Below are positions 43,285-63,405 of a stretch of DNA of 64,000 bases, piece after piece (positions within the stretch are counted from its first letter, which is position 1; every line of letters starts with the position of its first letter). Made by a program: the position numbers and the translations under genes. The notes beneath the pieces were generated by a model. That model saw nothing but the letters and a program-made list of their open reading frames with translations. It was not told where the DNA came from and made no database searches. The DNA lies in contig NZ_JAOANW010000004.1 in NCBI RefSeq assembly GCF_026162365.1, positions 186,001 to 250,000 of the forward strand, given 5' to 3'. The DNA comes from Nitratireductor luteus (lineage in GTDB: Bacteria; Pseudomonadota; Alphaproteobacteria; Rhizobiales; Rhizobiaceae).

Positions 43285-44496
43285 ATGAATATGCAGGATC
43301 AGAAGCCGAAAGCCTCGGAATCCAACTTCGTCTGGGACGACCCTTTTCTTCTCGACGAGCAGCTCAGCGACGAGGAGCGCATGATCCGCGATGCGGCGGC
43401 GGCGTTTGCGGCCGACAAGCTCAGCCCCCGCATCGAGCATGCCTATATGAACGAGGAGAGCGATCCGGCCATCTTCCACGAGATGGGCGAGGCCGGGCTT
43501 CTGGGGGTGACCATCCCCGAGGAATATGGCGGCGTCGGCGCGGGCTACGTCTCCTACGGGCTGGTCGCCCGCGAGGTGGAGCGGGTCGATTCGGGCTATC
43601 GCTCGATGATGAGCGTGCAGTCCTCGCTGGTCATGTATCCGATCCACGCCTATGGGTCCGAGGAGCAGCGCAGGAAATATCTGCCGAAGCTTGCTTCCGG
43701 CGAATATATCGGCTGCTTCGGCCTGACCGAGCCGGACGCCGGCTCCGACCCCGGCGGCATGAAGACGCGCGCCGACAGGATCGACGGCGGCTACCGGCTC
43801 ACCGGCTCCAAGATGTGGATCTCCAATTCGCCGATAGCCGACGTCTTCGTCGTCTGGGCCAAGTCCGCGGCCCATGACAACCAGATCCGCGGCTTCGTGC
43901 TGGAAAAGGGCATGAAGGGCCTTTCCGCGCCCAAGATCGGCGGCAAGCTCAGCTTGCGCGCCTCGATCACCGGCGAGATCGTGATGGACGGCGTGGAAGT
44001 GGGCGAGGATGCGCTTCTGCCCAATGTCGCGGGGCTCAAGGGGCCGTTCGGCTGTCTCAACCGCGCTCGCTACGGCATCTCCTGGGGGGCGATGGGGGCG
44101 GCCGAGGATTGCTGGCGCCGCGCCCGCCAATACGGCCTCGACCGCAAGCAGTTCGGCAAGCCGCTGGCGCAGACCCAGCTTTTCCAGAAGAAGCTGGCCG
44201 ACATGCAGACGGAAATCGCGCTCGGGCTCCAGGCCTCGCTCCGCGTCGGCCGTCTGTTCGACGAGGGCCGGATGGCGCCGGAGATGATCTCGCTCGTCAA
44301 GCGCAACAATTGCGGCAAGGCGCTCGACATCGCGCGCGCCGCCCGCGACATGCACGGCGGCAACGGCATCCAGATCGAATACCACGTGATGCGCCACTCG
44401 CAGAACCTGGAGACGGTCAACACCTATGAGGGCACGCACGACGTGCACGCGCTGATCCTCGGCCGGGCGCAGACGGGGCTGCAGGCGTTTTTCTGA
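43285..44496 (+). CDS. gcdH: Acyl-CoA dehydrogenase, glutaryl-CoA dehydrogenase type
   Basis: GcdH is an FAD enzyme that oxidatively decarboxylates glutaryl-CoA to crotonyl-CoA in lysine, tryptophan and aromatic breakdown. The 403-residue protein has '[16 protein letters not shown]' and '[20 protein letters not shown]', the GCDH-type FAD and substrate loop, and a catalytic Glu in '[10 protein letters not shown]' near residue 382. The Arg-rich '[15 protein letters not shown]' also fits GCDH. AGGAAGG lies 6 bp before the ATG. The 469-bp gap upstream (42816-43284) is lower in G+C, has no gene I can support, and presumably holds its promoter. Confidence 0.92.
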
Positions 44497-44508
44497 GGGC
44501 GGAAAGCC

Positions 44509-44535
44509 GCCGGCATGGCGCCGGCCCCCTTTCTT
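44509..44535 (+). terminator. Possible terminator after gcdH
   Basis: GCCGGC (44509-44514), a 5-nt loop and GCCGGC (44520-44525) are followed by 'cccctttctt'. The stem is short but GC-only and lies 13 bp after the gcdH stop. Confidence 0.4.
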
Positions 44536-44581
44536 GCAGGTTCCAGGACCTGGCGTGCTGCCGAGCCCCGAGAATTTGCTT

Positions 44582-44652
44582 TCTCCCCCGCCAGGGGGGA
44601 GATACGCTGCCATCGATTCCGGGTGCCCTTATCTCTCCCTCTGCGGGAGAGA
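44582..44652. repeat. Two consecutive CT/GA-rich hairpins in the gcdH-kbl gap
   Basis: TCTCCCCC/GGGGGAGA (44582-44589 and 44595-44602) and TCTCTCCC/GGGAGAGA (44632-44639 and 44645-44652) are each perfect 8-bp stems. They resemble the hairpin part of the dispersed repeats at 131, 7011, 8713 and 15378 but lack the 'atgcccggcagggcag' tail. Confidence 0.6.
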
Positions 44653-44745
44653 CAGCGCTTTCAGCATTCTGGCCGAAGGCTGAATGCTGGAAATCGCAAG
44701 ACAGGGGCTTGCCTCGCGCGACGGCCGTTTCTTGGTGAGGTACAC

Positions 44746-45933
44746 ATGACCGTTTCCTACCTAAAACACCTTTCTGCCGAGCTCGACGGCCTGAAATCCG
44801 CCGGCCTCTACAAGACCGAGCGCGTCATCACCTCGATGCAGTCGGCCGAGATCGAGAGCGGCGGCAGGAAGGTGCTGAACTTCTGTGCCAACAATTATCT
44901 GGGCCTTGCCGACAACGAGGAGCTGCGCGCGACGGCCAAGAAGGCGCTCGACCGCTACGGCTACGGCATGGCCTCCGTCCGCTTCATCTGCGGCACCCAG
45001 GAAGAGCACAAAGAGCTCGAGGAGACGATCTCGAAATTCCTCGGCATGGAGGACACGATCCTCTATTCCTCGTGCTTCGACGCCAATGCGGGCCTGTTCG
45101 AAACGCTGCTCGGGCCGGAAGACGCGGTCATTTCCGATGCGCTCAACCACGCCTCGATCATCGACGGCGTGCGGCTCAGCAAGGCAAGGCGCTACCGCTA
45201 CGCCAACAACGACATGGGCGAGCTGGAAGACCGGCTGAAGGAGGCCGCGGACGCCCGCTTCCGGCTGATCGCCACCGATGGCGTGTTCTCCATGGACGGC
45301 ATCGTCGCCAATCTTCAGGGCATCTGCGACCTGGCCGACAAATACGGCGCCATGGTCATGGTGGACGACAGCCACGCCATCGGCTTCGTCGGCGCGCATG
45401 GGCGCGGCACGCCGGAGCATTGCGGCGTGGAGGGGCGGGTGGACATCGTCACCGGAACGCTCGGCAAGGCGCTCGGCGGGGCCTCCGGCGGCTATACGAG
45501 CGGCAGGAAGGAGGTGGTGGAGTGGCTGCGCCAGCGCTCGCGCCCCTATCTTTTTTCCAACACGCTGGCCCCGGTCATCGCCGCCGCCTCGCTCAAGGTC
45601 TTCGACATCGTCAGGAACGGCGACAGCCTGCGCCGCCACCTTTACGACAACGCGGCCCGCTTTCGCGCCGGCATGGAGAAGCTGGGCTTCACGCTCGCCG
45701 GCGGCGGCCATCCGATCATCCCGGTGATGCTGGGCGATGCCGCGCTGGCCGACAAGATGGCCTCGCGCCTGCTGGACCACGGGATCTATGTCATCGGCTT
45801 TTCCTTTCCGGTGGTGCCCAAGGGCCAGGCCCGCATCCGCACGCAGATGTCGGCCGCCCATTCGGCGGAGGATATCGACCGGGCGGTGGAGGCGTTCGCG
45901 ATCGTGGGGCGGGAACTGGGGGTGATTTCATGA
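44746..45933 (+). CDS. kbl: Glycine C-acetyltransferase (2-amino-3-ketobutyrate CoA ligase)
   Basis: Kbl is a PLP enzyme that splits 2-amino-3-ketobutyrate with CoA into glycine and acetyl-CoA. The 395-residue protein has the alpha-oxoamine synthase pattern: '[13 protein letters not shown]' near the start, '[15 protein letters not shown]', and the PLP lysine in '[14 protein letters not shown]' near residue 241. The frame is open 77 codons upstream, but GGTGAGG 5 bp before the ATG at 44746 and the family N-terminus fix the start. tdh follows after 34 bp, completing the threonine-to-glycine pathway. Confidence 0.96.
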
Positions 45934-45967
45934 CGGCAGCCGACACTCCAGATACGGGGACAGTCTC

Positions 45968-47002
<1,035 letters not shown>

Positions 47003-48210: not shown

Positions 48211-48245
48211 TTGATAGTTACATTTTCAATGGTTACAGATGAAAC
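48211..48245. promoter_or_regulatory. MarR/hmgA divergent control region
   Basis: The short inverted repeat CATT-TTC-AATG (48221-48231) lies between two direct 'gttaca' repeats (48217-48222 and 48232-48237), close to the MarR start. This is a reasonable MarR operator, inferred from position and symmetry. Confidence 0.35.
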
Positions 48246-48273
48246 CAGTTTGGTCAATCCTGCGGAGGACGAA

Positions 48274-49587
48274 ATGACGGTCCGATACATGCCGGGTTTC
48301 GGCAACGACTTCGAAACCGAAAGCCTTCCCGGTGCGCTGCCGCAAGGCCAGAACTCGCCGCAGCGTCCGGCCTATGGCCTCTATGCGGAACAGCTCTCCG
48401 GCTCTCCCTTCACCGCCCCGCGCGGCACCAACGAGCGCTCCTGGCTCTACCGCATCCGCCCCTCGGTGCGGCACACGTCGCGCTTCAAGCCGGTCGAATA
48501 TGCGCGCTGGAAATCGGCGCCCAACCTGGACGACCACGAGCTTTCGCTCGGGCAGCTTCGCTGGGACCCGATCCCCATTCCCAACGAGCAAACGGATTTC
48601 CTGGCGGGCATCCGCACCATGACGACCGCCGGCGACACGCAGGGACAGTCGGGAATGGCGGCGCATATCTATGTCGCGAACGCCTCGATGGTGGACGACC
48701 ACTTTTTCAACGCCGATGGCGAGTTGCTGATCGTGCCGCAGGAAGGCGGCATCCGCGTCATGACCGAGATGGGCATCATGGAAGTGACGCCGGGCGAGAT
48801 ATGCATCGTTCCGCGCGGCATGATCTTCAAGGTCGAGCTGATGGACGGCCCGGTGCGCGGCTATATATGCGAGAACTACGGCGCCAAGTTCACCCTGCCG
48901 GACCGCGGGCCGATCGGGGCCAACTGCCTGGCCAATCCGCGCGACTTCAAGACGCCGGTCGCCTGGTACGAGGAGAAGGAGACGCCCTGCCGGCTGACGG
49001 TGAAATGGTGCGGGCGCTTCTATCGCACGGAGATCGATCACTCGCCGCTCGACGTGGTCGCCTGGCACGGCAACTATTCGCCGTACAAATACGACCTTTC
49101 CACCTTCTCGCCGGTCGGCGCCATCCTGTTCGACCATCCCGATCCGTCGATCTTCACGGTGCTCACCGCGCCCTCGGGCGAGGAGGGGACGGCCAATGTC
49201 GATTTCGTGATCTTCCCGCCGCGCTGGCTGGTGGCCGAGCACACCTTCCGCCCGCCCTGGTACCACCGCAACATCATGAGCGAGTTCATGGGGCTGATCA
49301 AAGGCCAGTACGATGCCAAGGAGGAAGGATTCGTGCCCGGCGGCATTTCGCTGCACAACATGATGCTGCCGCACGGGCCGGACGCTCACGGTTATGAGAA
49401 GGCGACCAGCGTGGAGTTGAAGCCGGTGAAGCTTGATGACACGATGGCGTTCATGTTCGAAACCCGGTTTCCCCAGCACCTGACGCGCTTCGCCGCCGAA
49501 AACGAGGCGCTCCAGGACAATTATATCGACTGCTGGACCGGCCTGAAGAAGCGTTTCAACGGCACGCCTGAAGGCGACTGGTCTTGA
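48274..49587 (+). CDS. hmgA: Homogentisate 1,2-dioxygenase
   Basis: HmgA is a non-heme Fe(II) enzyme that opens the homogentisate ring to maleylacetoacetate in tyrosine and phenylalanine breakdown. The 437-residue cupin protein shows the iron-ligand region '[14 protein letters not shown]' (His and Glu) and '[10 protein letters not shown]' (His), and family stretches '[11 protein letters not shown]' and '[11 protein letters not shown]'. An in-frame ATG at 48229 exists, but the excellent GGAGGA 4 bp before the ATG at 48274 and the family start '[16 protein letters not shown]' decide. Its stop overlaps the TTG of the next gene (TTGA). Confidence 0.96.
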
Positions 49588-50480: not shown

Positions 50481-51500
50481 ATGAAAGTCGCCACCTTGAA
50501 GGACGGCACACGGGACGGCAGGCTGGTCGTCGTCTCGAAGGATCTGACCCGTTATACGGACGCCTCCTTCCTCGCGCCGACGCTGCAGGCCGCGCTCGAC
50601 GACTGGTCGCGCGTTGCGCCCCATCTGGCAGCCCTTGCCGAAAGCCTGGAGCACGGCGCGGTGCCGGCCGAGCGCTTCCACGAACACGATGCCATGTCGC
50701 CCCTGCCGCGCGCCTATCAATGGGCGGACGGCTCGGCCTATGTGAACCATGTCGAACTGGTGCGGAAGGCGCGCGGGGCCGAAATGCCCAGGAGCTTCTG
50801 GGAAGACCCGCTTATCTATCAGGGCGGATCGGATTCCTTCCTCGGCCCGCGCGATCCCATCGCCGTGGCCGATGAGGCATACGGCATCGACATGGAAGGC
50901 GAGGTCGCCGTCATCGTTGACGACGTTCCCATGGGCGCTTCGGCGGACGAGGCACGGGATGCGATACGCCTCATCATGCTGGTCAACGACGTCTCGCTGC
51001 GCGGCCTCATCCCGGCCGAACTCGGCAAGGGTTTCGGCTTTTTCCAGTCGAAGCCTTCCTCGGCCTTCTCGCCGGTAGCGGTCACCCCGGACGAGATGGG
51101 CGAGGCCTGGGACGGGGGCAAGGTGCACCTGCCGCTTTGCGTCGACTACAACGGCAAGCCCTTCGGCCGGGCCAATGCCGGGATCGACATGACTTTCGAT
51201 TTCCCGACGCTGATCGCCCATGCCGCCAAGACGCGCCCGCTTTGCGCGGGCTCGATCATCGGCTCGGGCACCGTATCCAACAAGCTCGACGGCGGGCCGG
51301 GCAAGCCCGTCGATGCCGGCGGCGCCGGCTATTCCTGCATAGCGGAAATCCGCATGATCGAGGCAATCGACGACGGCAGGCCCAAAACTCCGTTCATGCG
51401 TTTCGGCGACACGGTGCGTATCGAGATGAAGGATAAGAATGGCCATTCCATTTTCGGCGCGATCGAGCAGGAAGTGCAGAAATACGAGAAAGGCGCATAA
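50481..51500 (+). CDS. Fumarylacetoacetate hydrolase family protein
   Basis: This 339-residue FAH-fold enzyme probably hydrolyses fumarylacetoacetate to fumarate and acetoacetate, the last step of the homogentisate route. The N-terminal cap begins 'MKVATLKDGTRDGRLVVVSK', and the catalytic domain has 'YGIDMEGEVAVIVDDVPMG' with metal-binding acidic residues, 'LVNDVSLRGLIPAELGKGFGFFQSKP', and 'GSGTVSNK'. It is shorter than eukaryotic FAH (about 419) and of the bacterial type found beside hmgA. The ATG has GGGAGA upstream. Its TAA is followed without a gap by the next ATG. Confidence 0.92.
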   Translation: MKVATLKDGTRDGRLVVVSKDLTRYTDASFLAPTLQAALDDWSRVAPHLAALAESLEHGAVPAERFHEHDAMSPLPRAYQWADGSAYVNHVELVRKARGAEMPRSFWEDPLIYQGGSDSFLGPRDPIAVADEAYGIDMEGEVAVIVDDVPMGASADEARDAIRLIMLVNDVSLRGLIPAELGKGFGFFQSKPSSAFSPVAVTPDEMGEAWDGGKVHLPLCVDYNGKPFGRANAGIDMTFDFPTLIAHAAKTRPLCAGSIIGSGTVSNKLDGGPGKPVDAGGAGYSCIAEIRMIEAIDDGRPKTPFMRFGDTVRIEMKDKNGHSIFGAIEQEVQKYEKGA

Positions 51501-52861: not shown

Positions 52862-53395
52862 ATGGATCTGCAAACCCATTTCAAGAAGATGGCGGCCAAC
52901 AATCGCTGGTCGAACCGGCGGCTGATGCGCGCCGTGCTCGCGCTGGAGCCGGGCGAGTTCGAAGCGCCGCGCACGGGCTTCTTCCCGTCCATAGCTAAGA
53001 CGCTCAATCACATCCTGGCCGTCGACCTCTACTATCTGGACGCGCTGGAGGAAGGCGGCCGCGGGCCCTCGGCATTCCATGACTTCGTGGCGTTCGAGGA
53101 TCCGGTGGCGCTCGCGCAAGCGCGGCGTGTGGAGGACGAACGCCTCATCGCCTTGTGCGAAAGGCTCGGCAGCGCCGACATGGCGCGCCGCGTCGTCACG
53201 GACCGGGGGGAGGCGGGCCGGTTCCCCGAGCTTGTCGGCGATTTGCTCGCCCATTTGTTCCTGCACCAGATTCACCACCGCGGGCAGGTGCACGCCATGC
53301 TGTCCGGCACCACCGTCAAGCCGCCTCAGCTCGACGAATTCTTCCTCGATTTCGACGCGCCTTCGAGGCGGGGCGAGATGGACGAGCCCGATTGA
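52862..53395 (+). CDS. DinB-fold protein (possible isomerase of the homogentisate pathway)
   Basis: This 177-residue four-helix DinB/YfiT-type protein has the metal-binding His triad intact: H50 in 'TLNHILAVD', and H135 and H139 in 'HQIHHRGQ', the family H-x3-H-R-G-Q pattern. The superfamily includes thiol-dependent S-transferases and maleylpyruvate isomerases as well as many uncharacterised proteins. It lies in a homogentisate cluster that has the dioxygenase and fumarylacetoacetase but no visible zeta-GST maleylacetoacetate isomerase, so it is a candidate for that step (inference). The gene starts 10 bp after the small membrane-protein gene. Confidence 0.85.
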   Translation: MDLQTHFKKMAANNRWSNRRLMRAVLALEPGEFEAPRTGFFPSIAKTLNHILAVDLYYLDALEEGGRGPSAFHDFVAFEDPVALAQARRVEDERLIALCERLGSADMARRVVTDRGEAGRFPELVGDLLAHLFLHQIHHRGQVHAMLSGTTVKPPQLDEFFLDFDAPSRRGEMDEPD

Positions 53396-53440
53396 ACCCG
53401 CCGCCCGCCGCCCGCCGGCCGCAACGAGTGTTTGGAGAAG

Positions 53441-55060
53441 ATGCCCCGCTACGCTTATCAGCCTTTCCCCTATAAAAAGCCGCCGGAGCTGGACGGCGCG
53501 GTCGCCCGGCAATATCCGGTCGCCATTGCCGGCGCGGGGCCGGTCGGGCTCTCGATGGCCGTCGATCTGGCGCTGCGCGGCGTTCCGTCCGTCGTGCTCG
53601 ACGACAACGACGTCGTGTCGCTCGGCAGCCGGGCGATCTGCTGGTCGAAGCGCACGCTCGAAATCTTCGACCGGCTGGGCATCGGCGAGCGCATGGTGGC
53701 AAAGGGCATCACATGGAAGGTCGGCCGGCTTTTCCATCGCGACCGCGAGGTCTGGAGCTTCGATCTCCTGCCCGAGGAAGGCCACAAGATGCCGGCCTTC
53801 ATCAATCTCCAGCAATATTATGTGGAACAGTATCTGGTCGAGCGCTGCGCGGATTTCCCCGACCTGATCGACCTGCGGTGGAAGAACCGGGTCAACGGCG
53901 TGCGCAGCCATCACACGGGCGCCAGGCTCGCGGTCGAGGCGCCCGGCGGCGCCTACCATCTCGACGCCGCATGGGTGATTGCCTGCGACGGCGCCCGCTC
54001 GCCGATGCGCTCATTCATGGGGCTCGACTTCGAGGGCCGGGTGTTCGAGGAGCGCTTCCTGATCGCCGATGTGGAGATGAGGGCCGATTTCCCGTCGGAG
54101 CGGTGGTTCTGGTTCGAGCCGCCGTTCCATCCGGGGCAGTCGGCCCTTCTGCACAAGCAGCCGGACAACATCTACCGCATCGATCTTCAACTCGGTCCCG
54201 ATGCCGATCCCGACCAGGAGAAGAGGCATGAGAACGTGATACCGCGCATCGAGAAGATCATCGGGCACGGCGATTTCGAGCTCGATTGGGTCTCGGTCTA
54301 CATGTTCCAGTGCCGCAGGCTGGAACGCTTCGTGCATGGCCGGGTGGTCTTCGCCGGCGACAGTGCTCATATAGTCTCGCCCTTCGGCGCGCGCGGCGGC
54401 AATGGCGGCATTCAGGACGTCGACAATCTGGGCTGGAAGCTGGCTCTGATCGTCAAGGGCGAGGCGCCCGAAAGCCTGATCGAAACCTATGATGAGGAGC
54501 GCGTCCGCGGCGCGGACGAGAACATCCTGAACTCGTCGCGCTCCACCTCCTTCATGACGCCCAAATCCAAGATGGAAAAGCTGTTTCGCGACAGCGTCCT
54601 CGATCTGGCGGCCGATCACGAATTCGCCCGCCGGCTGGTCAATTCCGGCCGCCTGTCCAGGCCCTGTTCCCTTGAAGGCCTCAGCCTGCAAACACCGGGC
54701 GCGGCCGAAGGGATTGCCCCCGGCCAGGCCATGCCGGACGCGCCGGTGCAATGCGAAGGCCGTCCCGGCTGGCTGCTGGAATATTTCGGCGGGGGTTTTG
54801 CGCTGATGGCGGTCGGATGCGCGCCGCCGCCCGGCTTGCCCGCCGGACTGCCGGTGATCGAGATATGGCCGGACGAGAACCTCGCCGGCGCCGAGGCGAG
54901 GATCGTCCTGCGCGATGCGGAAGGCCTCGTCGCCGACCGCTACGGCGCCGGCGTCATCTGCCTCGTCCGGCCCGACCAGCACATAGCGGCGACCTTCGTC
55001 GCGCCGCATGCCGACGAAATCGCCCTGGCCTATGCCCGCGCAATGGGGAGGGAGCATTGA
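53441..55060 (+). CDS. FAD-dependent aromatic hydroxylase (MhpA/PheA-type)
   Basis: This 539-residue class A flavoprotein monooxygenase has the FAD-binding 'GAGPVG' at residues 31-36, the middle 'ACDGARSPMRSFMG' (DG motif) and the 'GDSAHIVSPFGARGGNGGIQDVDNLGWKL' region near residue 306 in pieces. The C-terminal domain is thioredoxin-like, as in MhpA. Relatives hydroxylate phenols such as 3-hydroxyphenylpropionate using NADH. Here it may make homogentisate or a related diphenol from a hydroxyphenylacetate-type substrate. The ATG at 53441 has GGAGA just before it. Its stop overlaps the start of the DUF2783 gene by 4 bp. Confidence 0.88.
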   Translation: MPRYAYQPFPYKKPPELDGAVARQYPVAIAGAGPVGLSMAVDLALRGVPSVVLDDNDVVSLGSRAICWSKRTLEIFDRLGIGERMVAKGITWKVGRLFHRDREVWSFDLLPEEGHKMPAFINLQQYYVEQYLVERCADFPDLIDLRWKNRVNGVRSHHTGARLAVEAPGGAYHLDAAWVIACDGARSPMRSFMGLDFEGRVFEERFLIADVEMRADFPSERWFWFEPPFHPGQSALLHKQPDNIYRIDLQLGPDADPDQEKRHENVIPRIEKIIGHGDFELDWVSVYMFQCRRLERFVHGRVVFAGDSAHIVSPFGARGGNGGIQDVDNLGWKLALIVKGEAPESLIETYDEERVRGADENILNSSRSTSFMTPKSKMEKLFRDSVLDLAADHEFARRLVNSGRLSRPCSLEGLSLQTPGAAEGIAPGQAMPDAPVQCEGRPGWLLEYFGGGFALMAVGCAPPPGLPAGLPVIEIWPDENLAGAEARIVLRDAEGLVADRYGAGVICLVRPDQHIAATFVAPHADEIALAYARAMGREH

Positions 55061-55254
55061 CCGACAAGGACGAGATAGGCCGCGACCGGCTGGATACCGC
55101 CGGCGACGATTTCTATGCGCTGCTGATGCAGGCCCATGAAGGCCTGAGCTTCGAGGAAAGCGCTCGGCTCAACGCCAGGCTGGTTCTGCTGCTTGCCAAC
55201 CGGGTGGGCGATCTGGATGCGCTCCGAGCGGCGTTGGCGGCGGCGAAGAAGTAG
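55057..55254 (+). CDS. DUF2783 small protein
   Basis: This 65-residue acidic protein has 'DDFYALLMQAHEGLSFEES' followed by 'RLNARLVLLLANRVGD', the DUF2783 pattern. It begins at a TTG that overlaps the stop of the FAD hydroxylase (TTGA), so its synthesis depends on that gene. DUF2783 genes are commonly seen directly after this hydroxylase type in Proteobacteria, which suggests a small subunit or regulator of the flavoprotein; that role is inferred. It is the last gene of the plus-strand cluster and converges with the RidA-like gene. Confidence 0.85.
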   Translation: MTDKDEIGRDRLDTAGDDFYALLMQAHEGLSFEESARLNARLVLLLANRVGDLDALRAALAAAKK

Positions 55255-55317: not shown

Positions 55318-55812
55318 TCAGTTTTTCTCGGCGCGGACGGCGATGGCCTCCACCTCGATCAGCCAGCCGGGATTGGCAAGACCGGAGACCTCGAAGACCG
55401 AGCGCGCCGGCAGGTTGGGCTGTTCGTCGGTTCCGAAGAACTCGGTGTAGCCCTCCATGAAGCCGGCAAAATCCATGGGTTCCCCGTTCTGGCCGACCAG
55501 GAAGACCTGCAGTTTGACGACATCGCCCATCGTCAAATCCATGTCCTCGAGGCTTTTCTCGATGGACTGAAACACCGTTCTGGTCTGCTCGGTGATGTCG
55601 CCATAGGCCTCGATCGAGCCACGGTCGGCGTCTTCATTGACCACGGAGGGCACCGCGCCGCTCAAATAGACGGTGGTGGCGTCCCCCGGCACCTCTACCG
55701 CGCGGGCGATAGGGAAATCCGATCCGGGAATCTTGTGACGAACCACCTCATCGGCCAGTGCGACCCCCGAAATCAGCAGGGCGGGCAGGGTGAGGCTTGC
55801 AATACGCAGCAT
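55318..55812 (-). CDS. Exported RidA-family imine/enamine deaminase
   Basis: This 164-residue Rid/YjgF-family protein is unusual in having an N-terminal Sec signal peptide (residues 1-20, 'LLISGVALA-DE'). The family catalytic Arg is present as R137 in 'LPARSVFEV' (equivalent to E. coli RidA Arg105), with 'IEVEAIAVRAE' at the end. RidA hydrolyses reactive imines and enamines made by amino-acid-oxidising or PLP enzymes to keto acids and ammonia. AAGGAA lies before the ATG at 55812. It is third in a minus-strand cassette with a cytochrome c and a Tat-exported flavin amine oxidase. Confidence 0.9.
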   Translation of the reverse strand: MLRIASLTLPALLISGVALADEVVRHKIPGSDFPIARAVEVPGDATTVYLSGAVPSVVNEDADRGSIEAYGDITEQTRTVFQSIEKSLEDMDLTMGDVVKLQVFLVGQNGEPMDFAGFMEGYTEFFGTDEQPNLPARSVFEVSGLANPGWLIEVEAIAVRAEKN

Positions 55813-55897
55813 GAGAAATTCCTTTCGTTCAATGCAAGATAATCTGCGCTCCGGCGCTGAAGGCCGAAGCTCCTTCTCGCCATCTCCATGGCCGATT

Positions 55898-56341
55898 TTA
55901 AGGCCGGTTCTGGGCAACCATCTCGGCCGTTGCATCGCCGCCATACTCGTTTCCGAAATGCGTCTGGATGTAGTTGACGACATCCGCGATCTGCTGGTCG
56001 TCGAGGACGTCTCCCAGCGGCGGCATGGCCTTCTGGCCGTTGATGATGATGTAGATCGGGTATTCGGGAAATTCGAGGTTCTCATTATCCGCCAGCGCCG
56101 GATAAGCACCGGCGCCCACGGCGCCTTCGCCATCGGGCATATGGCAGCCCTGGCAAATGGCCCGGTAGACGTCCTCGCCGCCGGTCGCGCCGATCTTGGA
56201 AGGATCGGCGAACATGGCCTCATGGTCGGAAAGCTTGCGTGTGTTGGTCTGGTCGTCGCCGGTTGCGCTGTCCTGGGCGAGCGCGAAGGTAGAGACACCA
56301 AACAGAACGGCAAGACCGATAGCGCCTTTAAGAGCATTCAT
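55898..56341 (-). CDS. Exported class I c-type cytochrome
   Basis: This 147-residue protein has a Sec signal peptide (residues 1-22, 'VSTFALA-QD'), one haem-attachment site 'CQGCH' (C63, C66, H67) and a probable distal Met ligand at M106 in 'GQKAMPPLGD'. It should be a soluble monohaem periplasmic cytochrome. It is 26 bp downstream of the flavin amine oxidase gene and 85 bp upstream of the RidA gene, all on the minus strand. The natural inference is that it takes electrons from the reduced flavin, as CycN does for nicotine dehydrogenase NicA2. Confidence 0.92.
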   Translation of the reverse strand: MNALKGAIGLAVLFGVSTFALAQDSATGDDQTNTRKLSDHEAMFADPSKIGATGGEDVYRAICQGCHMPDGEGAVGAGAYPALADNENLEFPEYPIYIIINGQKAMPPLGDVLDDQQIADVVNYIQTHFGNEYGGDATAEMVAQNRP

Positions 56342-56367
56342 GACTTCTCTCCTTGGCTATTTGGCGT

Positions 56368-57954
56368 TCAACTGTTGATGACACGGTCATGCAGACGCGA
56401 GATCGCGTCCAGCGAGGAGAGGATCGCGCCCTCCTGCCAGCCGGGCAGATAGGATATGTGCTCGCCCGCCATTACCGTGCGCCCATCTATCGCCGCCGCT
56501 GTCTGGTACTGGGTCTCCCTGTCCTGCCAGATGCCGTAGCAGCCGAGCACCCACGGCACCCGGTGCCAGACCACGCTCACCCCATTACTGAATTCGTCTT
56601 TGTACTGGGGATGGATCCTGGCGCCGTATTCAAGCGCGATCCTGACCCGCTCCTCCGGCGGCATCGCGTTGAACTGGTAGGCGATCGCACCCCAGCTATA
56701 GCCGCCCAGAAGCACGCCCTTGCCGCCGCTGAAATAGTCGGTGGAGGGATAGCTGATGAGCGAGATCGGCAGGTCGGTGTAGCTGATGCCGCCGAATATG
56801 TTCTCGTCTTCCTCCCAGAAGCGCCGGTTGAACTCGAGGCCGAACTTGACCGAGCCGGCATAGTACATCGTGTCGATGACGCCTTTCATCGCGCCCGACA
56901 GGTTGTTCTCGATCTGGGAAAGGATGGAGAAGGGGATGGTGCAGATGCACCAGTCGCCCCTGGCTTCCTGGGCTCCGCCGCCTTCCTTCGTGTCCTCGAA
57001 ACTGACGGTGACGCCGTTCTCGTCCTGCATGATCGACGTGACCTTGGTGTTGTAGCGGATGACGTCCTTCACTTCGCGCTCGAAGGCCTGGGCGATCATG
57101 TCCATGCCGCCCACTGGCTGAAACATGGTCGCCTGGTGTTCGACGGTCTCGGCCTCGTCCAGCCACCGCCACAGCTCGGATTGAATGATCTTGCCCGGGG
57201 CGATGGGTTCGGAGGGTTCGGGACTGCCGTCCAGTCCGCCGCCCGGCCATTTCGCATAGCCTCGGTAGTCGCTGGTGCGCTCGCTTTTCACATAGGCATA
57301 GTTCTCGTCGAGAACGCCGTAGACGCGCAGCGATTCAAGGAGCATTTCCTTGTCTTCCTGCGTGACGAGCTCGTCGAGTTTGCCCTGGTTCGTCGCCTTG
57401 GCGAGAAGTTCCGATGTCTGGCCGCGATAGTCGGTGGCGATCTCGCGGAAGCGCTGGGGCTTTCCATCGAACGCTTCCTGCCGGTGCAGATACGCGTTGT
57501 GGTTCTTCTGGATGAAAGGTTCCAGCTTGACGCCCAGCCGCTTGCAATAGTCCAGAACCGCATGGTGATGATGCGGAATGCGCCAAGGGCCGGGATTGAA
57601 ATAATTGCCCTTTTCGTATTGCACGTTCTGCGTGGAGCCGCCGAGTTCCGTGTAGCTGTCGCCGCCGCGCAGCGTCCAGCAACGTCCGCCGGCCTTCTCG
57701 CGGTATTCCAGCACTTCGACCGTATAGCCGGCGGCGCGCAATTCCATCGCGGCAACCATGCCGGCAAGACCGGCTCCGAGGATCAGCACCTTCGCGCCCT
57801 GCGGGTCCCCGTCCAGCGCGATCGGCCCCCGATAGGTGGATTCCTGCGCATGGCCCAGCGTCGTCATCGCCTGATAGAGCGCCGCGCCTCCCGCGGTGGC
57901 ACCGATCATCGTCAAGAGATCCCGCCGCGACATCTGTCCGAACGTCCTGTGCAT
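56368..57954 (-). CDS. Tat-exported flavin monoamine oxidase/dehydrogenase family protein
   Basis: This 528-residue protein starts with a twin-arginine signal ('SRRDLLTMIG', R10-R11, then a hydrophobic stretch to 'LGHAQE'). It continues with an FAD Rossmann motif 'LGAGLAGM' (residues 59-66), the amine-oxidase motif 'REKAGGRCWTLRGG', 'FQPVGGMDMIAQAF', and the C-terminal FAD motif 'LPGWQEGAILSSL'. I see no Cys at the covalent-FAD position. Relatives oxidise amines or L-amino acids to imines. The ATG at 57954 has AGGAG 8 bp upstream; a GTG three codons earlier is less likely. It heads a cassette with cytochrome c and RidA. Confidence 0.92.
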   Translation of the reverse strand: MHRTFGQMSRRDLLTMIGATAGGAALYQAMTTLGHAQESTYRGPIALDGDPQGAKVLILGAGLAGMVAAMELRAAGYTVEVLEYREKAGGRCWTLRGGDSYTELGGSTQNVQYEKGNYFNPGPWRIPHHHHAVLDYCKRLGVKLEPFIQKNHNAYLHRQEAFDGKPQRFREIATDYRGQTSELLAKATNQGKLDELVTQEDKEMLLESLRVYGVLDENYAYVKSERTSDYRGYAKWPGGGLDGSPEPSEPIAPGKIIQSELWRWLDEAETVEHQATMFQPVGGMDMIAQAFEREVKDVIRYNTKVTSIMQDENGVTVSFEDTKEGGGAQEARGDWCICTIPFSILSQIENNLSGAMKGVIDTMYYAGSVKFGLEFNRRFWEEDENIFGGISYTDLPISLISYPSTDYFSGGKGVLLGGYSWGAIAYQFNAMPPEERVRIALEYGARIHPQYKDEFSNGVSVVWHRVPWVLGCYGIWQDRETQYQTAAAIDGRTVMAGEHISYLPGWQEGAILSSLDAISRLHDRVINS

Positions 57955-58169: not shown

Positions 58170-58197
58170 GAAAAACGGGACCGCAGAGCGGCCCCGT
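58170..58197 (-). terminator. Rho-independent terminator of hppD
   Basis: On the minus strand ACGGGGCCGC, TCT loop, GCGGTCCCGT (one G-U pair) is followed directly by a run of T residues. It lies about 130 bp past the hppD stop and before the amine oxidase cassette, so it should separate the two transcripts. The rest of the 374-bp gap (57955-58328) presumably holds the cassette promoter. Confidence 0.7.
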
Positions 58198-58328
58198 CAT
58201 GAGAGCGCCGGGCGTCCATCCGGACGCTGCACAAGGGCGCTCCGACACTTTGGATTCACGCATCGTGCCTTCCGAAGATCGATTCCGATTTCCGAGCCGA
58301 TGCTGCAGCCTCGTCGAACCGGCGGCCT

Positions 58329-59441
58329 CTATTCGGCCGCGTCCACCTTCAAGACGCCGCGGCGTATCTGGTCTTCCTCGATGCTTTCGAACAGCGCCCG
58401 GAAGTTTCCTTCACCGAACCCCTCGTCGCCCTTCCTCTGGATGAACTCGAAGAAGATCGGCCCGATGACGGTCTTGGAGAAGATCTGCAGCAGGATCTTG
58501 GTCGTGCCGCCGTCGATCACGCCTTCGCCGTCGATCAGAATGCCATGCTTCTTCATGCGGTCGATCGCCTCGTCGTGGCCGTGCACCCGCTCATGGCTCT
58601 TTTCGTAATAGGTATCCGGCGGTCCGGGCATGAATTTCAGCCCGTTCGCGGCCAGCCTGTCCGTGGCCTCGTAGATATGTTCGGTCCCGACGGCGATATG
58701 CTGGATGCCTTCGCCATTGTACTTCTTGAGATATTCCTCGATCTGGCTCTTGTCGTCGGTCGATTCGTTGAGCGGAATGCGGATCTTGCCGCATGGGCTC
58801 GTGATGGCGCGCGAGACGAGGCCGGTGATCTTGCCGGCTATGTCGAAGAAGTGGATCTGCTTGAAGCCAAACAGCTCGCGGTAGAAGGCCCACCACTTGT
58901 CCATGTTGCCGCGATAGACGTTGTGGGTGAGGTGGTCGAGATAGTAGAAGCCCACGCCCTCCGGCTTCGGATCGCGCTCGCCCGTCCATTCGAATTCATC
59001 GTCATAGGGCGAGCCCTTTTCCCCGTATTTATCGATGAAGTAGAGGAGCGACCCGCCGATGCCGACGATGGCCGGGGCGTCGAGGGTCTTGTCATCGCCC
59101 GTATAGGGCTCGGCGCCTTTGGCGACCGCATGGTCGAAGGCGTGCTGCGCATCGACCACGCGCCACGCCATGGACGGCGCACAGGGGCCGTGCTTTTCGA
59201 CGAAGCGCATGGCGTGGCTGCCCGGTTCGGCATTCAGCACATAGCTGATGTCGCCCTGGCGCCAGACGGCCATATTCTTCGACTTGTGGCGGGCGACCTC
59301 GACATAGCCCATGCGCGCGAAAAGCTCCGACAGCTTTTCCGGCTCGGGATGCGCGAATTCCACGAACTCGAAACCGTCCGTTCCGGCCGGGTTCTCTTTG
59401 CTGATTTCCGCGGGCGGCGCGTCATGTGGAAACGGACCCAT
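58329..59441 (-). CDS. hppD: 4-hydroxyphenylpyruvate dioxygenase
   Basis: HppD converts 4-hydroxyphenylpyruvate to homogentisate with Fe(II) and O2. The 370-residue protein consists of two vicinal-oxygen-chelate domains, with the iron ligands H170 ('YLDHLTHNV'), H248 ('IQHIAVGT') and E332 ('FFEFIQRKGD'). The C-terminal 'EGNFRALFESIEEDQ' is the usual helix that closes the site. It is divergent from an Lrp/AsnC regulator across 128 bp. HmgA and the fumarylacetoacetase gene are about 9 kb away, so the window contains most of the tyrosine-to-fumarate pathway. Confidence 0.97.
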   Translation of the reverse strand: MGPFPHDAPPAEISKENPAGTDGFEFVEFAHPEPEKLSELFARMGYVEVARHKSKNMAVWRQGDISYVLNAEPGSHAMRFVEKHGPCAPSMAWRVVDAQHAFDHAVAKGAEPYTGDDKTLDAPAIVGIGGSLLYFIDKYGEKGSPYDDEFEWTGERDPKPEGVGFYYLDHLTHNVYRGNMDKWWAFYRELFGFKQIHFFDIAGKITGLVSRAITSPCGKIRIPLNESTDDKSQIEEYLKKYNGEGIQHIAVGTEHIYEATDRLAANGLKFMPGPPDTYYEKSHERVHGHDEAIDRMKKHGILIDGEGVIDGGTTKILLQIFSKTVIGPIFFEFIQRKGDEGFGEGNFRALFESIEEDQIRRGVLKVDAAE

Positions 59442-59569: not shown

Positions 59570-60037
59570 ATGAGCCGTGCACAGATTGATGGATTTGACC
59601 GCAAGATATTGTCACTGCTGCAAACGGACGCCCGGCTGACCAACAACGATTTGTCGGAACGCGTGAACCTCTCGCCGTCACAATGTTCGCGCCGCCGTCA
59701 AAGATTGGAGGAGGAGGGGCTGATATCCGGCTATTGTGCGGTGCTCAATCGGGAGCGGCTGGGTTTTCCGCTGATCAACGTGATCACCGTGACGCTCGCC
59801 ACCCACAATCCCGACAATGCGCGCCGCTTCGCCGATCTGGTGGCCAGTTTGCCCGAGGTGCAGGAGGCCTTCGCGCTCACCGGCGAGATGGACTATATCC
59901 TGAAGGTGGTCACGCCCGACCTTCAAAGCCTATCGGATTTCGTCAACGCCGTCCTGCTTCCCCACGAATCGGTCCAGCACGTGAAGACGGCGATCGTGCT
60001 GCAGACGCTCAAGGAAACCTCCAGCCTTCCTCTGTGA
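59570..60037 (+). CDS. Lrp/AsnC family transcriptional regulator
   Basis: This 155-residue regulator has the AsnC helix-turn-helix 'DRKILSLLQTDARLTNNDLSERVNLSPSQCSRR' in its first third and a RAM domain with 'EVQEAFALTGEMDYILKV'. The length is standard. It is divergent from hppD, a frequent arrangement in which the Lrp protein senses phenylalanine or tyrosine and activates hppD. It is also 259 bp upstream of the TRAP transporter on the same strand, so it could control both. The ATG at 59570 has 'gaaggg' upstream; the longer frame from 59507 is not needed. Confidence 0.93.
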   Translation: MSRAQIDGFDRKILSLLQTDARLTNNDLSERVNLSPSQCSRRRQRLEEEGLISGYCAVLNRERLGFPLINVITVTLATHNPDNARRFADLVASLPEVQEAFALTGEMDYILKVVTPDLQSLSDFVNAVLLPHESVQHVKTAIVLQTLKETSSLPL

Positions 60038-60120: not shown

Positions 60121-60296
60121 CTTGGTTTCGACCGGGGTTCGGATGCAGGATGTGCGGCGCTGATCGGATTCGCGATTTTTCGCGTGCCCGACCGTGCAAG
60201 AAGAAGTAGCCATGGTCCATTGCAGCCGAACTGGAGCATAATCCAGAATGCGGGCAGCTCCGGGAAAACCGGGTGTTCAAAAGGGAGGACAACAAT

Positions 60297-61346
60297 ATGA
60301 GAATGAAATCACTGAAGAGGCTGGCCGCCGCCGGTCTCATCGCCGCCACCGGCCTTCTGGGCGCCGTGTCCGGCTCGCTGGCGCAGGAGGTGACGCTTCG
60401 CCTGCACCAGTTCCTGCCGCCGCAGGCCAATGTGCCGAAGCTCGTGCTGGACCCGTGGGCCGACAAGGTCGAGCAGGAATCGGGCGGCCGCATCAAGATC
60501 GAGCGCTATCCGGCCATGCAGCTCGGCGGCACGCCTCCGCAGCTCTACGACCAGGCGCGTGACGGCGTGGTCGACATCGTGTGGACGCTGCCGGGCTCCA
60601 ACCCCGGACGTTTCCCTTCGACCGAAGTGTTCGAGCTTCCCTTCATGATGACCAATGCCGAGGCCACGTCCCGCGCCTATTGGGACCTGTTCGAAAAGCA
60701 CATGAAGGACACCGAATTCAAGGACACCCATGTCCTGGGCGTGTGGGTGCACGGGCCGGGCATGCTGCACTCCAAGACCCCGATAGACGAGCTGTCCGAT
60801 CTCAACGGCATGAAAATCCGCGCGCCCACGCGCATCATCAACGCGCTGCTGGGCCAACTCGGCGCGACGCCCGTCGGCATGCCGGTGCCGCAGATCACGG
60901 AGGCGCTGTCCAAGGGTGTCATCGATGGCTGCGTGATCCCGTGGGAAGTGACGCCGGCGCTCAAGGTGCCCGAACTGGTGGAAAACCACACCGAGTTTGG
61001 CGGCGACCATGCGCTCTACACGACGACCTTTGTGCTGGCGATGAACAAGGCCAAGTATGAGAGCCTGCCGGACGATCTCAAGAAGGTGCTCGACGACAAT
61101 TCCGGCCAGGAATTCGCCGCTTTCGCCGGCCGCACCCAGGCTGGCGCCGACGGCCCCAGCCGTCAGATCGCGGTCGATCGCGGAAACAACATCATCCAGA
61201 TCAGCGCCGAAGACACCGAAAAATGGAAGGAAGCCGCCCAGCCGGTCTACGACCAGTGGATAGCGGAGATGAAGGAAAAGGGCATCGACGGCGAAATGCT
61301 CATCGATGAAGCCCGCGCCCTGATCGACAAGTACACGAACAACTGA
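60297..61346 (+). CDS. dctP: TRAP transporter solute-binding protein, DctP family
   Basis: This 349-residue periplasmic binding protein has a Sec signal peptide (about residues 1-29, 'VSGSLA-QE'). The body shows the DctP pattern 'GGRIKIERYPAMQLGG', 'FELPFMMTNAEA', and the binding-site Arg segment 'LNGMKIRAPTRI' with 'VIDGCVIPWEV'. A strong GGGAGGA sits 7 bp before the ATG. DctP proteins bind organic acids, with an Arg pairing to the ligand carboxylate. Given hppD and an amine-oxidising cassette next door, an aromatic or branched keto acid is a possible ligand (inference). Permease genes follow after a terminator-like hairpin. Confidence 0.94.
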   Translation: MRMKSLKRLAAAGLIAATGLLGAVSGSLAQEVTLRLHQFLPPQANVPKLVLDPWADKVEQESGGRIKIERYPAMQLGGTPPQLYDQARDGVVDIVWTLPGSNPGRFPSTEVFELPFMMTNAEATSRAYWDLFEKHMKDTEFKDTHVLGVWVHGPGMLHSKTPIDELSDLNGMKIRAPTRIINALLGQLGATPVGMPVPQITEALSKGVIDGCVIPWEVTPALKVPELVENHTEFGGDHALYTTTFVLAMNKAKYESLPDDLKKVLDDNSGQEFAAFAGRTQAGADGPSRQIAVDRGNNIIQISAEDTEKWKEAAQPVYDQWIAEMKEKGIDGEMLIDEARALIDKYTNN

Positions 61347-61534: not shown

Positions 61535-62086
61535 ATGCATGTTTGGGGTAAGGGAGTGAAACTCTCGGTGATCATCCCTTGGCTGGCGCGCGGGCTGGCC
61601 ATATTGGGCGGCTTCGTTCTCGTCGTCGTGACGGTACTGACGGTCGTCAGCATCACCGGGCGCGCGTTGATCGTTTTCGGCTTCGGCCCCATTCCCGGCG
61701 ACTACGAGCTGGTGGAAGCAGGGGTGGGCTTCGCCGTCTTCTCGTTTCTGCCCTGGTGCCAGCTCAACCGCGGCCACGCCTCGGTCGACATCCTGACGAG
61801 CTTCTTCCCGCCGCGGGTCAACCGGGCGATCGACTTGATTTCGGAAGTGCTCATGACGCTGGTGATCATGCTCATCGCCTGGCGGCTCTATCACGGCATG
61901 CTCGACAAGCTGAGCTACAACGAAACGACCTTCATTCTGCAGTTCCCGCTCTGGTGGGCCTATGCGGCGAGCCTCGTCGCGGCCGTGGTAGCGGTCGTCG
62001 TTTCCGTGTTCGCCACCTGGCAGCGCATCCTCGAGTACCGGGCCGACGGCGGCAGCTATACCTTGGGCCAGGGAGGCCTTCATTGA
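61535..62086 (+). CDS. dctQ: TRAP transporter small permease, DctQ family
   Basis: This 183-residue inner-membrane protein has four hydrophobic segments (about residues 12-40, 55-75, 95-120 and 135-160) and the DctQ pattern 'GDYELVEAGVGFAVFSFLPWCQLNRGHASVDI' split across TM2 and its loop. It forms the membrane part with DctM and is required for uptake driven by a Na+ or H+ gradient. The ATG has AAGGGGA upstream. It is separated from dctP by a terminator-containing gap of 188 bp, and its stop overlaps the dctM start (TTGA). Confidence 0.93.
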   Translation: MHVWGKGVKLSVIIPWLARGLAILGGFVLVVVTVLTVVSITGRALIVFGFGPIPGDYELVEAGVGFAVFSFLPWCQLNRGHASVDILTSFFPPRVNRAIDLISEVLMTLVIMLIAWRLYHGMLDKLSYNETTFILQFPLWWAYAASLVAAVVAVVVSVFATWQRILEYRADGGSYTLGQGGLH

Positions 62087-63405
62087 GCAATCTCGAACTC
62101 GGCCTCTGGTCCTTCCCGGTTCTGCTGGTCCTCATCTTCCTGCGCATGCCCATCGGCCTCGCCATGATCATCTGCGGCCTGGCCGGCACATGGCTCGTAA
62201 CCGGCAGCACGATACCGGTTCTCGCCAAGCTCAAGAACGAGACCTATTCGACCTTCTCCAGCTACTCGCTTTCCATCGTGCCGCTGTTCCTCCTGATGGG
62301 CCAGTTCGCCACGCTGGGGGGCATGTCGCGGGCCCTTTTCCGGGCCGCCGAGACCTGGATGGGCCACAGGCGCGGCGGCGTTGCGATGGCGGCTGTCGGC
62401 GCTTGCGCCGGTTTCGGCGCCATCTGCGGCTCGTCGCTGGCGACGGCGGCCACGATGAGCCAGGTCGCCCTGCCGGAATTGCGCCGCTACGGCTATTCCG
62501 GGGCCCTGGCGACCGGCACGCTCGCCGCCGGCGGCACGCTCGGCATCCTCATCCCGCCTTCGGTCATTCTCGTCATCTACGCGATCCTGACCGAGCAGAA
62601 CATCGCCAAGCTGTTCGTGGCCGCCCTCGTGCCGGGGCTGCTGGCGGCCGCCGGCTACATGGTGGCGATATCGATCTATGTGCGCATCTGGCCCGAATCG
62701 GCCGGCAAGCGGGAGCGCGCGCCCTATTCCGAACGCTTCCGCGCCCTGCTGGATGTATGGCCGGTACTGGTGGTGTTTTTCGCCGTCGTGGGCGGCATTT
62801 ATCTCGGCATTTTCACGCCGACCGAGGGCGCGGCCGTGGGCGCGGCGGGCACCGGCCTCATCGCCCTGGCCAATGGCGGCCTGACGCGCGCGACTTTCGT
62901 CCAGTCCATCCTCGCCACGGCCAGCGCCACGGCGATGATCTTCTTCATCGTGCTGGGCGCGAGCTTCTACAATTCGTTCCTCGCATTGGCGCAGGTGCCG
63001 CAACAGGCGGCAGCCTTCATCGGCGAGCAGGGCTTCAATCCGTGGCTGGTGCTGGTGCTGATCCTGCTGCTCTACCTCGTCTTCGGCTGCGTCATGGATT
63101 CGCTTTCGATGATCCTACTGACGATCCCAATCTTCTTTCCGATCGTCATGGCGCTCGATTTCGGCATGTCCGCCGAGGAATTCGCCATCTGGTTCGGCAT
63201 TCTGGTGCTGATCGTGGTGGAGGTGGGGCTGATAACGCCGCCGGTGGGCATGAATCTCTTCGTGCTCAATTCCATGGCCAAGGACACGCCCATCGCCGAC
63301 ACCTATCGCGGCGTGCTGCCCTTCGTGGCGAGCGACATCATACGTGTCGCTATCCTCACCATGTTCCCGGCGATATCGCTGTTCCTCATGCGCTGGCTGT
63401 ATTGA
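62083..63405 (+). CDS. dctM: TRAP transporter large permease, DctM family
   Basis: This 440-residue inner-membrane protein has about 12-13 hydrophobic segments and family motifs 'FLRMPIGLAMIICGL', 'GAICGSSLATAATMSQVALPELRRYGYS' in portions, 'LGILIPPSVILVIYA' and 'VEVGLITPPVGMNLFVLNS'. It is the translocation subunit of the TRAP system. The frame runs upstream across dctQ, but the TTG at 62083 overlapping the dctQ stop gives the family N-terminus. It ends the operon; the sulfotransferase gene converges from the right. Confidence 0.94.
   Translation: MSNLELGLWSFPVLLVLIFLRMPIGLAMIICGLAGTWLVTGSTIPVLAKLKNETYSTFSSYSLSIVPLFLLMGQFATLGGMSRALFRAAETWMGHRRGGVAMAAVGACAGFGAICGSSLATAATMSQVALPELRRYGYSGALATGTLAAGGTLGILIPPSVILVIYAILTEQNIAKLFVAALVPGLLAAAGYMVAISIYVRIWPESAGKRERAPYSERFRALLDVWPVLVVFFAVVGGIYLGIFTPTEGAAVGAAGTGLIALANGGLTRATFVQSILATASATAMIFFIVLGASFYNSFLALAQVPQQAAAFIGEQGFNPWLVLVLILLLYLVFGCVMDSLSMILLTIPIFFPIVMALDFGMSAEEFAIWFGILVLIVVEVGLITPPVGMNLFVLNSMAKDTPIADTYRGVLPFVASDIIRVAILTMFPAISLFLMRWLY

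Follow-up and report, generated by a model that had tools for sequence, protein, structure and literature searches.

What could an exported flavoenzyme, an exported c-type cytochrome and an exported Rid protein do together outside the cytoplasm, and on which substrate would they act? The question is raised by three tightly spaced minus-strand genes in a 64,000-nucleotide stretch of the Nitratireductor luteus genome (this whole stretch is called the window below). The initial annotation described a flavoenzyme with a twin-arginine translocation (Tat) signal, a monohaem cytochrome c with a Sec signal and a Rid protein with a Sec-type leader; the coordinates and signals of all three were confirmed (Table 1). 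The intergenic gaps were 26 bp between the flavoenzyme and cytochrome genes and 85 bp between the cytochrome and Rid genes. The interpretation given in that annotation, a self-contained unit for the oxidation of amines, was partly supported. The trio is read here, with moderate confidence, as a periplasmic cytochrome c-linked L-amino acid dehydrogenase module which in this genome feeds tyrosine catabolism. This reading draws on gene content and order, export signals, conserved active-site residues and the genomic setting, as established by sequence comparison. Export signals were judged with a simple hydrophobicity script and by eye.

Identity of the flavoenzyme

The flavoenzyme has a Tat-type N-terminus (MHRTFGQMSRRDLL) with the motif SRRDLL and a leader covering, by eye, residues ~1-36. 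Its top match among Protein Data Bank (PDB) sequences was the L-amino acid oxidase (LAAO) 2jae (E 5e-85, 290 bits, residues 55-526), which we take to be from R. opacus. The 15 top distinct PDB sequences were LAAOs, reconstructed LAAO ancestors or mutants, and L-glutamate oxidases, one entry carrying just the label 'amine oxidase', and the 16th was a monoamine oxidase; a full-length match to LAAOs therefore ranked above other PF01593 enzymes. R125 and Y419 aligned with an Arg and a Tyr of solved LAAOs, as expected of an LAAO-type active site, and were invariant across the alignment of 75 rows, among them those of the window and of nine cyanobacteria (the enzymes of loci L028 and L044, whose matches were split, were absent from the alignment and the tree). 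The equivalent Arg and Tyr of LAAOs presumably bind the substrate carboxylate. Homology and active site support an L-amino acid as the predicted substrate rather than the general amine of the initial annotation, and a generic amine oxidase identity was rejected on the LAAO-led PDB matches and the invariant R125/Y419 pair. An exported oxidoreductase for amines such as NicA2 or Pnao belongs to the same superfamily and likewise has the signature of a Tat enzyme with a Sec cytochrome, but among 60 of the 94 PDB matches no nicotine enzyme was named, LAAOs leading and a few lower matches being labelled 'amine oxidase', and the Arg/Tyr pair did not vary; an amine substrate is highly improbable.

The exported Rid protein

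Seven PF01042 proteins are encoded in the genome, and a clearly hydrophobic leader on the coding strand was found only in the trio copy, whose best 9-residue hydrophobicity mean was 2.50, compared with at most 1.51 for the other six. The earlier description of this protein as a RidA-family imine deaminase was right as to the Rid fold family (Ribonuc_L-PSP) and wrong as to the subfamily. Its TIGR00004 score was 51.4 bits against a cut-off of 106.25, and Ile stands at the RidA Tyr position, so that the RidA subfamily was rejected. In the Rid3 pattern the active-site Tyr is replaced by Ile, and Arg and Glu are kept (PMC4433059). Among the aligned rows, window included, the catalytic R137 and E153 were present in 81/81 and I35 in 80/81, the equivalence of these positions being judged by eye, and by these residues the protein is Rid3-like. 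The top PDB sequences were 9bka/9bkc, and the closest solved relatives were PSPTO_3006 and PFL_1385, which have been assigned to Rid3 and act on the imines formed by a snake LAAO from L-Phe and other amino acids (PMC5619798). A lipobox-like cysteine was seen in the exported Rid of loci L067 and L088, and by eye also in L006, L008 and L074; such proteins may be membrane-anchored lipoproteins.

Conservation of the trio

Conservation of the trio beyond this genome and export of the Rid protein were two of the three checks set by the initial annotation, and both came out in its favour. A genome-collection scan gave at least 560 confirmed relatives of the Rid protein; the analysis was confined to the best 80, which tilts this sample towards near relatives. 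Flanks of up to 8 kb were covered, some of them cut by contig ends. The three genes stood in the order LAAO, cytochrome, Rid on one strand in 66 of these 80 loci, with the trio conserved across Alpha-, Beta- and Gammaproteobacteria and Campylobacterota. Nine loci, all cyanobacterial (L034, L037, L053, L054, L060, L062, L069, L085 and L089), paired a Tat-LAAO with an exported Rid and had no intervening CxxCH gene. All three genes were present in a different order in L071, and in L014, L076, L084 and L086 the Rid gene had no LAAO gene in the stretch covered. The Rid leader was signal-like by the script in 78 of the 80 loci, and the two below threshold (L024 and L048) were leader-like by eye. Pattern matching detected a twin-arginine motif in 75 of 76 LAAOs; the remaining one (L092) has RRQAL.

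The family is patchy. The LAAO (E <= 1e-50) was found in 19/385 genomes of the class and 27/398 of the phylum, and the Rid (E <= 1e-25) in 9/385 genomes of the class. When the wider neighbourhood was searched for recurrent genes, no gene came close to the trio in spread, save for a mixed cluster of ATP-binding cassette (ABC)-type ATPases in 19 of 90 neighbourhoods, some members of which were amino-acid-importer-like by eye. In L110 (10335-12794) a few kb lay between the Rid gene and the LAAO-cytochrome pair, including a large gene that was by eye TonB-dependent receptor-like; in L111 the two parts were also a few kb apart, and a member of the same receptor-like cluster was present.

The electron acceptor

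The CxxCH motif and M106 of the cytochrome were invariant in 68/68 aligned rows (window included), and the leader was signal-like by the script in 62 of 67 relatives. No close solved relative of the cytochrome was found among PDB sequences. Flavoprotein amine dehydrogenases that use cytochrome c, such as NicA2, Pnao and their relatives, form an established class (PMC12224317; PMC9396064), marked, as is the trio, by a Tat flavoenzyme with an adjacent gene for a Sec cytochrome c. NicA2, Pnao and other enzymes pass two single electrons to cytochrome c, and of two features that predicted measured dehydrogenase activity, an adjacent cytochrome gene was the stronger (PMC12224317).

A second sample was fetched with the LAAO (E <= 1e-60 or 1e-50; 49 loci from 50 distinct matches, overlapping the Rid-fetched sample in part). 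At 50% identity or more, a cytochrome c match lay within 1.5 kb in 24/24 loci, the window included, which gives genomic support to the cytochrome link proposed at the outset; 13 of these 24 also had a Rid match, side and strand being disregarded. At 30-50% identity, a cytochrome match or CxxCH gene was found in 9 of 25 loci (L193 being doubtful) and a Rid in 14 of 25. Among more distant LAAO-Rid loci, L194, L195 and L199 had between the two genes a third that encodes two CxxCH motifs and is c4-like by eye, to all appearance a different kind of cytochrome at the same position.

The enzyme might instead be a periplasmic LAAO that makes H2O2, the cytochrome merely scavenging peroxide or being unrelated. 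The closest solved relative, 2jae, is named an oxidase, and K370, a putative flavin-facing lysine, was kept in 75/75 LAAO rows, which counts against electron transfer to the cytochrome; such a lysine promotes the reaction with O2 in oxidases, yet is kept in nearly all known dehydrogenases (PMC12224317). LAAO-type enzymes can work without a neighbouring cytochrome, because no CxxCH gene stands between LAAO and Rid in the nine cyanobacterial loci and none was nearby in 16 of the 25 loci at 30-50% identity. An H2O2-forming oxidase is nevertheless quite improbable, given the adjacent cytochrome in all closer loci, the finding that adjacency predicted dehydrogenase function among the enzymes tested (PMC12224317), and the dependence on ccm cited for a like trio in Gluconacetobacter diazotrophicus, where ccm mutants are listed with 5% of wild-type indole-3-acetic acid (IAA) (PMC5053998).

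The nine cyanobacterial LAAOs formed one clade (100/100) and were set apart by ten columns, including W124 to A beside R125. No single residue separating cytochrome-linked from cytochrome-free LAAOs could be named, all ten columns being confounded with the clade. Position 505 was Gly in the nine cyanobacterial enzymes, but also in the window and eight other cytochrome-linked rows.

The homogentisate island and the substrate

The unit is not simply self-contained, as had been proposed. The trio sits in a homogentisate island with genes for 4-hydroxyphenylpyruvate dioxygenase (HPPD), homogentisate 1,2-dioxygenase (hmgA), a fumarylacetoacetate hydrolase (FAH)-family protein, an Lrp-type regulator and a TarP-type tripartite ATP-independent periplasmic (TRAP) importer, and is flanked by the only hmgA of the genome on one side and by its only HPPD over cut-off on the other.

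Island comparison suggested a link between the Rid protein and HPPD. In genome G007 and in Mesorhizobium xinjiangense (L014), the island was present, with an exported Rid gene behind HPPD and no LAAO or cytochrome gene between. In G007 nucleotide similarity to the window extended as far as the stop codon of HPPD, and in L014 to a point 25 bp short of it; in both it restarted 43-63 bp inside the Rid gene; the LAAO-cytochrome block is therefore the difference between these islands and that of the window. The LAAO-cytochrome pair was on a separate contig in G007, and a full trio was on a separate scaffold (L027) in M. xinjiangense. The island Rids of the window, G004, G007 and L014 formed one clade (100/100). 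That the Rid gene stays beside HPPD even where the LAAO is elsewhere suggests that the Rid substrate is a precursor of the HPPD substrate. In 16 genomes of the genus, the LAAO was found in 4 and HPPD in 11, and the Rid occurred in 3 of the 4 with the LAAO and in none of the 12 without it (chance 4/560 = 0.007, ignoring relatedness). In Limimaricola pyoseonensis (L073), hmgA was ~4 kb from a trio.

The importer is consistent with an aromatic oxo acid as product. Its modelled binding protein (mean pLDDT 90.6) matched best TarP_Sse with coumarate/cinnamate (7nr2/7nra), with 66% identity and a TM-score of 0.94-0.96 (target length); it thus resembles aromatic-acid binders and has DctQ and DctM adjoining, as in a TarP-type system. 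Coumarate, caffeate, ferulate and cinnamate are nM ligands of the R. palustris TarP (PMC3610893). Coumarate is a C6-C3 acid similar in shape to 4-hydroxyphenylpyruvate, and by this analogy a TarP-type protein might bind 4-hydroxyphenylpyruvate; binding of that compound has been reported, in the available portions of the TarP literature, for the ABC protein CouP and not for TarP. The TarP-type importer adjoins HPPD also in G004 and L014 (L124 and L141 were absent from the importer alignment). A second, more distant relative of the binding protein (42% identity) is encoded elsewhere in the genome (G000:C19:2671-3696).

Several observations weigh against the tyrosine reading. HPPD or hmgA was found in only 2 of the 80 best Rid-fetched loci (L014 and L073), so the module as such is not tyrosine-specific; a general link between trio and homogentisate genes was rejected on this count, L014 having no LAAO beside its Rid. 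G002, a genome of the genus, had the LAAO-cytochrome pair and no such Rid, and the other HPPD loci of the genus had neither Rid nor LAAO in 1.5 kb flanks. HPPD was beside TarP in only 1 of 30 TarP loci of the class (1.5 kb flanks), the window's own, and a general TarP-HPPD link was likewise rejected; the island stretch of G007 gave no TarP match. The G004 island is arranged as in the window, but the two are near-identical, which limits what their agreement can say. In the LAAO tree the window enzyme was nearest Limimaricola, weakly (81/39), and since the LAAO groups there and the Rid with the island Rids, the parts of the trio may have joined late. Finally, HPPD and the trio are probably separate transcription units because a terminator-like hairpin lies between them (Table 1). 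This hairpin has the longest stem of six terminator-like sites in the window, a class not above chance (4.7 +/- 1.9 in shuffles), so that the rejection of a shared transcript is suggestive only.

These observations leave room for a broad L-amino acid dehydrogenase, serving general nitrogen scavenging with ammonium freed extracellularly, or the conversion of tryptophan to indolepyruvate, the homogentisate neighbours being coincidental. Most trios lack homogentisate genes in the stretches covered, ABC-type ATPase genes recur in its neighbourhoods, and in G. diazotrophicus the corresponding cluster, contrary to a tyrosine role, acts on tryptophan; the R. opacus LAAO is cited in the same paper as very broad (PMC5053998). 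This alternative has a fair probability but is the less likely of the two, since the island Rids remain behind HPPD even without the LAAO-cytochrome pair in the island, the Rid occurs in the genus only alongside the LAAO, and a C6-C3 acid importer adjoins.

Proposed mechanism

We infer the electron acceptor, the substrate and the transport step as follows. The Tat-exported LAAO would oxidise an aromatic L-amino acid, most likely L-tyrosine and perhaps also L-phenylalanine, to the 2-imino acid. Reduced FAD would pass single electrons, in two one-electron transfers, to the adjacent cytochrome c and on to the respiratory chain rather than to O2. The exported Rid3-type protein would hydrolyse the imino acid in the periplasm to 4-hydroxyphenylpyruvate and ammonium, the TarP-type TRAP importer would carry the C6-C3 oxo acid inward, and HPPD, HmgA and FAH would process it inside through homogentisate. 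No match to the phenylalanine hydroxylase family was found in the genome, so phenylalanine would not reach homogentisate via tyrosine by that enzyme. The complete scheme is a split-compartment tyrosine pathway, in which deamination is periplasmic, import by TarP is dedicated and the homogentisate pathway is inside, with ammonium released outside, electrons going to respiration and neither transaminase nor peroxide involved; it is put forward tentatively, at somewhat less than even confidence.

Relation to known systems

The trio itself is not new, because the lao-cccA-ridA cluster of G. diazotrophicus (GDI2456-2454) has been in print since 2016 (PMC5053998). By its description it has the corresponding three genes in the same order, including a Tat LAAO, and genetics tie it to tryptophan deamination and c-type cytochromes: Tn5 insertions in lao abolished IAA production from tryptophan, and the cccA and ridA transcripts fell too. 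That cluster was linked to indolepyruvate and IAA, and the available portions of the paper mention no signal on RidA and no homogentisate or TarP setting (PMC5053998). A 2025 survey of cytochrome c-using enzymes was built on NicA2 relatives, and its main text contains neither 'RidA' nor 'L-amino acid' (PMC12224317); the trio adds an LAAO-like enzyme and a Rid protein. Clustering of RidA/Rid3 genes with FAD amine oxidases has been reported for the Rid3 subfamily (PSPTO_3006, PFL_1385), in papers whose main texts contain no 'periplasm' or signal terms (PMC4433059, PMC5619798), whereas here an export leader was near-universal. Chlamydomonas pairs a periplasmic LAAO (LAO1) with a Rid (LAO2/RIDA), as here; LAO1 differs in forming H2O2, with no cytochrome partner mentioned in the available portions, and its oxo acids are not a carbon source (PMC10805672). 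A literature search, which most subscription journals lay outside, turned up no paper that places the trio in a homogentisate island or a TarP importer next to the trio, and none that describes an export leader on nearly all members of this Rid group. What was not found in print, and appears new here, is the setting of the trio and not the trio itself.

Other features of the island

The remaining genes are listed in Table 1. The DinB-superfamily protein is a candidate for a maleylacetoacetate isomerase of the thiol-dependent kind; the proteins scanned included no GST-type isomerase, the rest of the genome not having been searched for one. The substrate of the FAD monooxygenase is perhaps, at a guess, a hydroxyphenylacetate-type acid. 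Two metallo-beta-lactamase-fold proteins are also encoded in the island. Upstream (43285-47002) lie genes for an acyl-CoA dehydrogenase, glycine C-acetyltransferase (kbl) and L-threonine 3-dehydrogenase (tdh), by their annotation a second amino acid catabolic block.

Table 1. Features of the trio and its surroundings (window positions unless a locus is named)
Feature	Position	Strand	Remarks
hmgA, homogentisate 1,2-dioxygenase	48229..49587	+	TIGR01015 721 bits (cut-off 510.75); only match in genome
FAH-family protein	50481..51500	+	PF01557, PF18288
DinB-superfamily protein	52862..53395	+	candidate maleylacetoacetate isomerase
FAD monooxygenase, PRK08132 subfamily	53432..55060	+	
DUF2783 protein	55057-55254		overlaps end of FAD monooxygenase gene
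Exported Rid protein, Rid3-like	55318..55812	-	164 aa; Ribonuc_L-PSP 75 bits; Sec-type leader MLRIASLTLPALLISGVALA
Monohaem c-type cytochrome	55898..56341	-	147 aa; one CQGCH; Cytochrome_CBB3/Cytochrom_C; Sec-type leader
Tat-exported LAAO-type flavoenzyme	56368..57954	-	528 aa from ATG; Pfam Amino_oxidase PF01593, 194 bits
Terminator-like hairpin between HPPD and trio	58174..58198	-	11 pairs
HPPD	58329..59441	-	TIGR01263 411 bits (cut-off 277); only match in genome above cut-off
Lrp/AsnC-family regulator	59570..60037	+	divergent from HPPD; scanned from 59564
TRAP solute-binding protein, TarP type	60273..61346	+	start uncertain: 60273 or later in-frame ATG
DctQ, small TRAP permease subunit	61535..62086	+	
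DctM, large TRAP permease subunit	62095..63405	+	start approximate
Lone island Rid behind HPPD	L014 6538-8420; L146 9835-11522		

Implications

Should the proposed function hold, the cytochrome c-linked amine oxidoreductases would gain an L-amino acid branch. A 2015 paper stated that no in vivo substrate of Rid1-3 was known (PMC4433059), and imine removal outside the cytoplasm would give Rid3 a physiological place. Cyanobacteria, whose LAAO-Rid pairs lack a cytochrome, provide a natural comparison for the choice that such flavoenzymes make between O2 and cytochrome.

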